Below, piece after piece: positions 20,817 to 24,464 of a DNA stretch of 27,815 nt; the first letter of the stretch is position 1, and each line of letters opens with the position of its first letter. Origin of the DNA: a virus; IMG/VR virus record IMGVR_UViG_3300007960_000135, positions 1-27,815 of that record; one strand, given 5' to 3'. The notes beneath the pieces are model-generated. The model searched no databases and was not told the DNA's origin. It saw nothing but the letters and a program-made list of their open reading frames with translations. The translations under genes and the position numbers were made by a program.

Positions 20817-20850
20817 GGGACAGGCGAGGACTCCCATACTCGCCTGTCCC
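20817..20850 (+). repeat. Perfect 12-bp inverted repeat ahead of the initiator gene
   Basis: GGGACAGGCGAG at 20817-20828 and CTCGCCTGTCCC at 20839-20850 are perfect reverse complements with a 10-nt loop. No U-run follows in either direction, so it is not a standard terminator. It lies 29 nt before the ATG of the replication-initiator-like gene, with AAGGAG between, and could be a leader control or a single-strand assembly structure. Confidence 0.75.
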
Positions 20851-20879: not shown

Positions 20880-21539
20880 ATGACCATCTATGACCTTCTA
20901 GCAGACATTGCGTTAACGCGCATCCAAAATCCTACAGCGAAAATCGTTTTGTTATCACTGGCATCCTACTGCAACAGCGCAGGAGAATGCTGGCCGTCAA
21001 AGGAAACGATTGCGCGAGATACATGTGCTTCACTGAGGTCTGTTGTGCGCGCGATCCAGTGGCTCGAAGAGCATGGATACATACGCATCGAGCGTCGGTC
21101 TGGATCATCCAACTTCTACATCATCACCTGCATGGAGGAAGAAATGTCAGAGGATACCCGTGCCAATTTGGCACACGAAGTAGATAGTAATATTACTCAG
21201 TTAGATATCTCCAAGAAAAGAGATACTACTTCCCGTGCCAATTTGGCACACCCCAAGGATACACCGCTCTTCCTTGCATTCTGGCAAGCCTATCCCCGGC
21301 GGGTAGGAAAGGGGGCGGCGCGCATTGCCTTCGATAAAGCAACGCGCTCAGCCGATCCGAATGAGATTGTCCAAGCTGCCATCGCCTACTCCAAACACTG
21401 CGAAGAGACCGGAATCGAGATGAAGTTCCGCCCTCACCCGGCGACATGGTTGAACGGTGAGCGCTGGGAGGACGACCTCGAAGCTGAGAAACAGGAGGTG
21501 ACACAGGTGAAGAACCATGACTGGCTCAATGAATTATGA
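20880..21539 (+). CDS. Replication initiator-like protein (HTH_36 N-terminus)
   Basis: A 219-residue protein with a winged-helix HTH_36-type domain at about residues 10-85 (NPTAKIVLLSLASYCN, CWPSKETIARDTCASLRSVV, WLEEHGYIRIERR) and a conserved C-terminal part (FLAFWQAYPRRVGKGAARIA, then RPHPATWLNGERWEDDL) usual in phage replication initiators of the O/DnaT-like kind. Between them a linker (about 92-125) contains RANLAH twice, coded by identical palindromic DNA (see candidate origin). AAGGAG precedes the ATG. It probably binds an origin within its own gene and recruits the host helicase. Family role is inference. Confidence 0.8.
   Translation: MTIYDLLADIALTRIQNPTAKIVLLSLASYCNSAGECWPSKETIARDTCASLRSVVRAIQWLEEHGYIRIERRSGSSNFYIITCMEEEMSEDTRANLAHEVDSNITQLDISKKRDTTSRANLAHPKDTPLFLAFWQAYPRRVGKGAARIAFDKATRSADPNEIVQAAIAYSKHCEETGIEMKFRPHPATWLNGERWEDDLEAEKQEVTQVKNHDWLNEL
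21157..21251. other. Candidate replication origin within the initiator gene
   Basis: Two identical 20-bp direct repeats, CCCGTGCCAATTTGGCACAC, lie at 21157-21176 and 21232-21251; each contains the 15-nt palindrome GTGCCAATTTGGCAC. The 55-nt spacer is A+T-rich and itself contains palindromes AGTAATATTACT (21186-21197) and AGATATCT (21203-21210). The arrangement lies in the linker codons of the initiator-like gene, like the lambda iterons inside gene O. Origin activity is inferred. Confidence 0.6.
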
Positions 21540-21981
21540 TCAACGCATCAGCTACCTGAAGAACTGGCTTCGTAATGATATCCTGAGCCGGTTCAACATG
21601 CCTCGCGATCTGGATCAGAAGATCATTGCAATGGATACCATCGAGGCAGTGAACAACAACATCCCGAGCAACATCGACTCGGAACGATTGGGCCAGCTCG
21701 TCGCCTCCATCACGAAAGAGCTGGCCCAATCAGCAACCTCACGCACCCTCCCCAGCATCAAGCTATTCATCGACGCAACCCGCTCTGCATCGAAGAAGCT
21801 CGGAGAGGGCCGCACAGCGGCGGCTCGCTCTCCAGAAGGGTTGGACACCCTGAAGATCACCGAAGCCCGTATACGGGCAGGAGAATCGATCTCAGACACA
21901 TTCCTGCGTGGGACCATGCGTGAGATGCTGATCGCCAAGACCTCGATCACCGATGCCGACCTTGAGGCATACGAGCGTTGA
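21517..21981 (+). CDS. Hypothetical 154-aa protein in the replication block
   Basis: A 154-residue, mainly helical protein (start MTGSMNYDQRISYLKNWLRN) with SERLGQLVASITKELAQSAT and a central TLPSIKLFIDATRSASKK. No Walker motif or nuclease motif is visible. It overlaps the initiator gene by 23 nt. Its place just after the initiator is that of the lambda P-type helicase loader, but nothing in the text proves such a role. The stop overlaps the -35 box of the next promoter. Confidence 0.75.
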   Translation: MTGSMNYDQRISYLKNWLRNDILSRFNMPRDLDQKIIAMDTIEAVNNNIPSNIDSERLGQLVASITKELAQSATSRTLPSIKLFIDATRSASKKLGEGRTAAARSPEGLDTLKITEARIRAGESISDTFLRGTMREMLIAKTSITDADLEAYER

Positions 21982-24013: not shown

Positions 24014-24157
24014 ATGAAATACGTCATCATCAAACGACTGATAAGAAAGTCGGAGCTAATCAAGTCCGATGCAAAACAAAAAAACAACCTGAGCTTGGTT
24101 CAGGACATGGAAGAGTTCATCGCCCTTCTGGAAATGTTGGAGAAGACCAATGACTAA
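24014..24157 (+). CDS. Hypothetical 47-aa protein
   Basis: A 47-residue protein (MKYVIIKRLIRKSELIKSDA, then LVQDMEEFIALLEMLEKTND) with a basic N-terminal and acidic C-terminal half, probably a helical hairpin. AGAGG stands 6 nt before the ATG. It overlaps the start of the DnaA-domain gene by 8 nt, so it may serve partly for translational coupling. No family recognised. Confidence 0.6.
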   Translation: MKYVIIKRLIRKSELIKSDAKQKNNLSLVQDMEEFIALLEMLEKTND

Positions 24158-24464
24158 TCCTTTCGCAGCTATCACCAACGACAAAACGCACAAGCTGATC
24201 GAGGCTACAGCAGAGCTTTCCGGTTTAGATATGGAGGTGCTTTGCACCAATCGGGAAGCTCCGGTGTTTCTGGCCCGAGCCACTGCAATGTGGATTATGC
24301 GCAATCATCTTGGCATGTCCCTTGGAGAAATTGGACGCGCCTTTGGCAGAGACCACTCGACCGTGATCAATGCCCTTCGTCGCGCAGACGGCATGATAGA
24401 ATCTTATTCCATGGTGAGAGATTTGAAAGATCAGCTCGTCAAACAAATAGATGAAGCCGCATGA
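24150..24464 (+). CDS. Stand-alone DnaA domain IV protein
   Basis: A 104-residue protein whose residues 20-82 match the DNA-binding domain IV of the bacterial initiator DnaA: ARATAMWIMRNHLGMSLGE, IGRAFG and the signature GRDHSTVINA (residues 66-75). It has no AAA+ or N-terminal domains. It could bind DnaA boxes in host or phage DNA, acting as a competitor of host initiation or a helper at the phage origin. It is coupled to the next gene by ATGA. Confidence 0.85.
   Translation: MTNPFAAITNDKTHKLIEATAELSGLDMEVLCTNREAPVFLARATAMWIMRNHLGMSLGEIGRAFGRDHSTVINALRRADGMIESYSMVRDLKDQLVKQIDEAA

Follow-up and report, generated by a model that had tools for sequence, protein, structure and literature searches.

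RESULTS

The initiator gene and its surroundings

The window, meaning the whole 27,815-base stretch of DNA analyzed here (positions 1 to 27,815 of the IMG/VR virus record IMGVR_UViG_3300007960_000135), represents a podovirus-like phage, with genes for terminase, head-tail connector, capsid, nozzle and endolysin. A gene on the plus strand at 20880..21539 encodes a 219-aa replication initiator composed of an HTH_36 winged helix, a disordered linker and a helical C-terminal domain. Profile searches assign the product to Pfam HTH_36 (3.8e-16, above the family cutoff) and to the replication initiation proteins of phrog_270 (1.2e-43, residues 17-207), placing it by domain content among the HTH_36/phrog_270 initiators, with a further O-like match to phrog_391 (1.2e-20). 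The Pfam search gave no match of the protein to PF04492 (Phage_rep_O), a family that lambda O itself matches at 5.7e-36. In the AF2 model the winged helix occupies residues 1-85 and is followed by a linker (residues 88-123) that is disordered by its pLDDT below 50, and then by the helical C-terminal domain. Helix 52-64 of the model is the recognition helix, encoded on the plus strand at 21033..21071, and it includes the two residues whose identity covaries with the iteron bases described below, Arg53 (codon 21036-21038) and Arg57 (codon 21048-21050). The linker codons (21141..21248, plus strand) house the candidate origin.

Genes for a RecE-like exonuclease, a resolvase and an SSB-like protein lie near the initiator gene, and no polymerase gene was found in the 27,815-base record. 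Immediately downstream, in the position of lambda P, a 154-aa candidate helicase loader gene (21517..21981, plus strand) overlaps the end of the initiator gene, stop included, by 23 bp; a downstream gene with a short overlap was present in 17/17 loci examined. Its product has no convincing Pfam or PHROG match and no close relatives in the phage collection. The top structural match of its model was the lambda P loader (9oa1_Z; Z 8.5, 88 aligned, rmsd 3.5, 15% identity), a score also attained by common helical folds, and on this modeled likeness the product may be a helicase loader of a candidate new family.

Other features of the region were noted as well. A perfect 14-bp inverted repeat with an 18-nt loop (GATTGGGCCAGCTC / GAGCTGGCCCAATC, 21686-21731) lies within the downstream gene, and a perfect 12-bp inverted repeat with a 10-nt loop (GGGACAGGCGAG / CTCGCCTGTCCC, 20817-20850) lies just upstream of the initiator start, where it could be a terminator-like hairpin or an attenuator ahead of the replication genes. 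At 24150-24464 is a gene for a small protein consisting mostly of DnaA domain IV (Bac_DnaA_C, 7.9e-16), which may act either on host oriC or together with the phage origin. The DnaA box TTWTNCACA has 0 matches in the whole record, and DnaA boxes beside the iterons were dismissed on this ground.

Two identical iterons frame the A+T maximum of the record

Two copies of the 20-bp sequence CCCGTGCCAATTTGGCACAC, 100% identical, are found on the plus strand at 21157..21176 (iteron 1) and 21232..21251 (iteron 2), exactly as an earlier note on this DNA had described. Each contains the 15-nt palindrome GTGCCAA-T-TTGGCAC with one central base, at 21160-21174 and 21235-21249. The iterons lie about 280 and 355 bp into the initiator coding sequence, in the codons of residues 93-98 and 118-123, inside the disordered stretch 88-123. 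Just two TGCCAANTTGGCA sites exist in the 27,815-base record, both within the initiator gene, and a whole-record search found no copy of the palindrome upstream of this gene or elsewhere.

The 55-bp spacer between the iterons (21177..21231) is a candidate DNA-unwinding element. With 71% A+T, compared with 49% in the initiator gene and 47% in the record, it is the record maximum among 55-bp stretches, so that the A+T-rich spacer pointed out earlier proved to be the extreme of the whole sequence. Spacers of the close homologs are likewise 68-80% A+T in genes of 49-58%. The window thus shares with lambda-type origins a site within initiator linker codons and, by composition, an adjacent A+T-rich tract. 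The two spacer palindromes of the earlier note are indeed present, one of 12 bp (AGTAATATTACT, 21186..21197) and one of 8 bp (AGATATCT, 21203..21210), but they are not strictly conserved. The 12-mer is partly conserved only, broken by a synonymous ATT>ATA in five homologs (L002, L015-L018) and lost in L008-L013; the 8-bp palindrome is not conserved among homologs and is probably incidental. Both were therefore rejected as strictly conserved elements on the codon alignment of homologs.

The switch in cumulative GC skew that the earlier note had suggested checking was not seen at 21.2 kb, and the minimum lies near 18 kb (17.5-18.5 kb), at a switch of gene direction. GC skew is uninformative as an origin marker here because it is confounded by gene orientation.

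Selection acts on the DNA of the iterons

The earlier note had argued that the peptide RANLAH, encoded twice, does not account for repeats that are identical at the DNA level. We estimated chance by shuffling synonymous codons while the initiator protein was kept fixed. Two perfect 15-nt palindromes arose in 42/20,000 shuffles, while neither the 20-nt exact repeat (0/3,000) nor the joint repeat-plus-dyad score as observed (0/3,000) was reproduced. Across 67 homologous genes, the repeat-dyad score exceeded all 300 synonymous shuffles in 31 and reached p < 0.05 in 49, being not significant in the other 18/67; repeat or dyad elements in linker codons, as found in the window, are in this sense a property of 49/67 of the family.

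The iterons were also compared in a codon alignment with 20 IMG/VR sequences of close homologs. Copy 1 of the palindrome keeps 5-7 of its 7 pairs in all 21 close sequences, while the peptide encoded there varies (RANLAH, RAKLAH, TAKLAH, RANSAH, QAKSAA, EEKFSS). The arms change together, usually in both copies, giving TGCC..GGCA, GTGCA..TGCAC, GGCA..TGCC or GGAA..TTCC. Pair 5 is always C:G or A:T and unbroken in both copies, and pair 3 is invariably G:C. Conservation of the palindromes in homologs was borne out for copy 1 but only in part for copy 2, which has eroded to 3-4 of 7 pairs in six close homologs (L003, L020, L015-L018). Homologs that keep RANLAH with different codons would speak for the peptide; wherever RANLAH is encoded, copy 1 always reads CGT GCC AAT TTG GCA CAC, and copy 2 has the same codons except for TTG>CTG, which affects the innermost pair, and a single GCA>ACA.

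Elsewhere the DNA word of the palindrome is translated in other frames as well. When viral contigs were scanned for paired copies of GTGCCAANTTGGCAC, 17 loci came up, 16 of them in the gene family of the window; the remaining locus (L043) is a different HTH_36 initiator in which the word is read in two frames. Looser scans added more distant HTH_36 genes with the palindrome, among which each of the three frames is used (ANLA, CQxGT, VPxWH), with CQNGTGVVPNWHGDSANLAH in L079 and CQLGTTPVPTWHHTSANLAP in L097 as examples of alternative-frame reading, and more than one frame is used within the single genes L079, L097 and L043. The synonymous shuffles, two-arm compensation and use of three reading frames, all read from sequence, indicate that it is the DNA, not the RANLAH peptide, that is under selection, in line with the earlier argument.

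The recognition helix covaries with the iteron

Across the superfamily, the sequence of the half-site follows that of the encoded recognition helix. After redundancy reduction, Arg57 is encoded by 51/51 genes whose half-site has C as base 5 (GTGCC, GTGTC) and by 0/54 of those with A (GTGCA, GGAA), a difference with a Fisher value of 3e-31 that ignores the relatedness of the genes. Among genes retrieved by protein rather than by palindrome, the corresponding counts are 21/21 and 0/13, a set that is not fully independent because a few of its genes helped suggest the rule. The background frequency of Arg57 is 22/46. Residue 53 is Arg where base 4 is C or A and Ser in 21/30 genes with T. The window agrees with this pattern (GTGCC half-site, Arg53 and Arg57), and among its close relatives a change from GTGCC to GTGCA coincides with a change of Arg57 to Thr. 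On a tree built with the helix masked, the two traits change in step at least 20 times, although this tree is short and weakly supported and well-supported branches hold one independent contrast only. Two finer predictions were less successful: Asp52 for GGAA sites held in 2/5 genes only, and Ser53 for GTGTC sites in 18/27 only.

Predictions set from the first homologs were followed by scans in which viral DNA was searched for the palindrome sequences only. HTH_36-like ORFs contained the palindrome pair at 99/120 loci for GTGTC, at 93/120 for GTGCA and at 5/12 for GGAAAA; such ORFs account for about 8% of all fetched bases. A double-palindrome scan of bacterial genomes placed 7/72 sites inside HTH_36 genes and most outside them, so the motif alone is no initiator marker outside phages.

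The scans also brought up, outside HTH_36 genes, recurrent pairs of TGCCAANTTGGCA that span exactly 59 nt (L082, L087, L088, L093, L096, L100, L101, L103, L104). The contigs concerned belong to Anaerolineae, Rhodobacteraceae and Rhodoplanes, and midway between the two copies there is often a third, weaker one (period about 23). This is a different element sharing the same palindrome. Separately, a 7.2 kb viral contig region (L068) contains eight TGCCAANTTGGCA palindromes, and a single ORF with no recognised HTH_36 domain accounts for four of these.

The covariation strongly supports binding of the initiator to the iterons in its own gene, as far as sequence comparison can speak to it. It lends weight to the proposal of the earlier note that the initiator carries its own target, an origin activity at that target being the further step that this proposal would imply. 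We consider it reasonably likely that HTH_36 initiators follow a general code, in which Arg at residue 57 goes with C at base 5 and a non-Arg residue with A, Arg at residue 53 with C or A at base 4 and mostly Ser with T, and base 3 is nearly always G. Origin and specificity would thus be readable from sequence in very many uncultured phages, co-evolving within one gene as a self-targeting unit. In the open-access literature, from which the classical reviews of phage replication modules fall outside, we found no description of a helix-iteron code for HTH_36 initiators and no paper on the GTGCC..GGCAC palindrome, which is weak evidence in both cases.

DISCUSSION

Overall these results make it very probable that the window contains a lambda-ori-like origin, in which iterons within the linker codons of the initiator flank an unwinding element. 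The argument is built from sequence: the iteron sites, their framing of the A+T maximum, selection at the DNA level and helix-iteron covariation. From it we infer dimer binding, the exact contacts, strand opening, helicase loading and use as an origin. The N-terminal winged-helix domain would bind each palindrome, presumably as a dimer that places a recognition helix on each half-site, and Arg53 and Arg57 probably read the G's opposite C4 and C5 of GTGCC. The two bound iterons would flank the 55-bp A+T-rich segment, which would then open, and the C-terminal domain, possibly via the product of the overlapping downstream gene, would recruit the host replicative helicase. The phage would in this way rely on the host replisome, and recruitment of the host helicase would explain why the record has no polymerase gene.

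The alternative that survives best, though we regard it as unlikely, is that the palindromes are an intragenic operator by which the initiator regulates itself or road-blocks its own transcription, with replication starting elsewhere. Covariation speaks to binding and not to replication, many winged-helix proteins with palindromic sites act as repressors, and regulators and plasmid segregation proteins predominate among the structural neighbours of the initiator model. An operator accords poorly, however, with the confinement of the palindrome to sites deep in the coding sequence, none being upstream of the gene, and with the way these sites frame the A+T maximum. The protein families moreover name the product a replication initiator, and the initiators of lambda and SPP1 house an origin at the corresponding place. 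We give still less credit to the idea that the sites serve another protein, such as a phage repressor, a host protein or the DnaA-domain-IV protein of 24150-24464. The window does encode further HTH proteins besides this Bac_DnaA_C protein, but the iteron sequence tracks initiator residues 53 and 57 in over 100 non-redundant genes, and the palindrome is unlike the DnaA box that the record lacks. That RANLAH is a functional peptide, its DNA identity reflecting recent duplication or codon bias, is scarcely credible: the linker does carry the peptide twice in one frame, both in the window and in its close homologs, but the shuffles, the compensation and the three frames refute a protein-level repeat as the sole explanation. 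Equally implausible is an RNA element in the initiator mRNA (a hairpin, terminator or regulatory stem), as inverted repeats can form RNA stems but a single central base would force a hairpin loop to break inner pairs, and an RNA stem does not predict covariation with the encoded DNA-binding helix.

A lambda-ori-like origin in the window has clear counterparts in known systems. In lambda, iterons with hyphenated symmetry within gene O are bound by O dimers, the A+T-rich tract next to them opens and DnaB is delivered by P (PMC5043065, PMC6022878); the minimal unwinding unit, as cited in a further paper, is two iterons plus the adjacent A+T-rich tract (PMC7466680). The annotated lambda ori has a matching architecture, as the earlier note had supposed from its placement. 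Both initiators have an N-terminal DNA-binding domain, a flexible linker and a C-terminal partner-binding domain, and in both phages the origin, a probable one in the window, lies in the middle of the initiator gene, with hyphenated dyad iterons adjoining an A+T-rich tract and an overlapping downstream gene (P in lambda). The two differ in that lambda O belongs to PF04492, whereas the window protein is an HTH_36 protein without a PF04492 match. In lambda, four iterons of 18-19 bp lie to one side of an A+T tract of ~40 bp, whereas the window has two perfect 15-nt palindromes flanking a tract of 55 bp, and the iteron sequences themselves are different (TCCCTC.. in lambda and GTGCC.. in the window). 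By analogy, the best reading is that the window origin would work like lambda ori, while its initiator lies outside the lambda O family as judged by PF04492.

SPP1 gp38 offers a similar arrangement, as oriL lies in gene 38 with repeats and an A+T-rich unwinding element, and the phage encodes a helicase loader (PMC6316719). Compared by description, the window shares a probable origin with repeats and an A+T-rich element inside the initiator gene, while SPP1 differs in being a Gram-positive system with a second origin (oriR) elsewhere, its own DnaB-type helicase and repeats described as direct and not as the palindrome of the window. Similar in domain layout are the PHROG 270/HTH_36 phage initiators (such as Arthrobacter RedFox gp46, Pontimonas phiPsal1 RepO, Pseudomonas vB_Pae_CF183a), most of which have dyad-symmetric or direct repeats in the linker codons, as the window does. 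Their iterons vary by clade in sequence and number, many forming tandem arrays of 15-24 bp, in contrast to the two far-spaced copies flanking A+T-rich DNA in the clade of the window. An origin within an initiator gene is thus already known from lambda O, Stx phages and SPP1 gp38, and what is new is the paired flanking layout in HTH_36 phages together with an apparent helix-iteron code.

The probable replication origin of an uncultured phage, one without replisome genes of its own in the record, has been located from its DNA letters alone. The single stretch of DNA would serve both as codons and as a binding site, and it is a clear case of such double use, given that the palindrome is read in all three frames. 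The findings also suggest a testable specificity code for a widespread family of phage initiators. If the code is true, it would help in predicting origins from viral metagenomes and in explaining why related phages are incompatible, and would make phage-derived replicons easier to build in laboratory strains.
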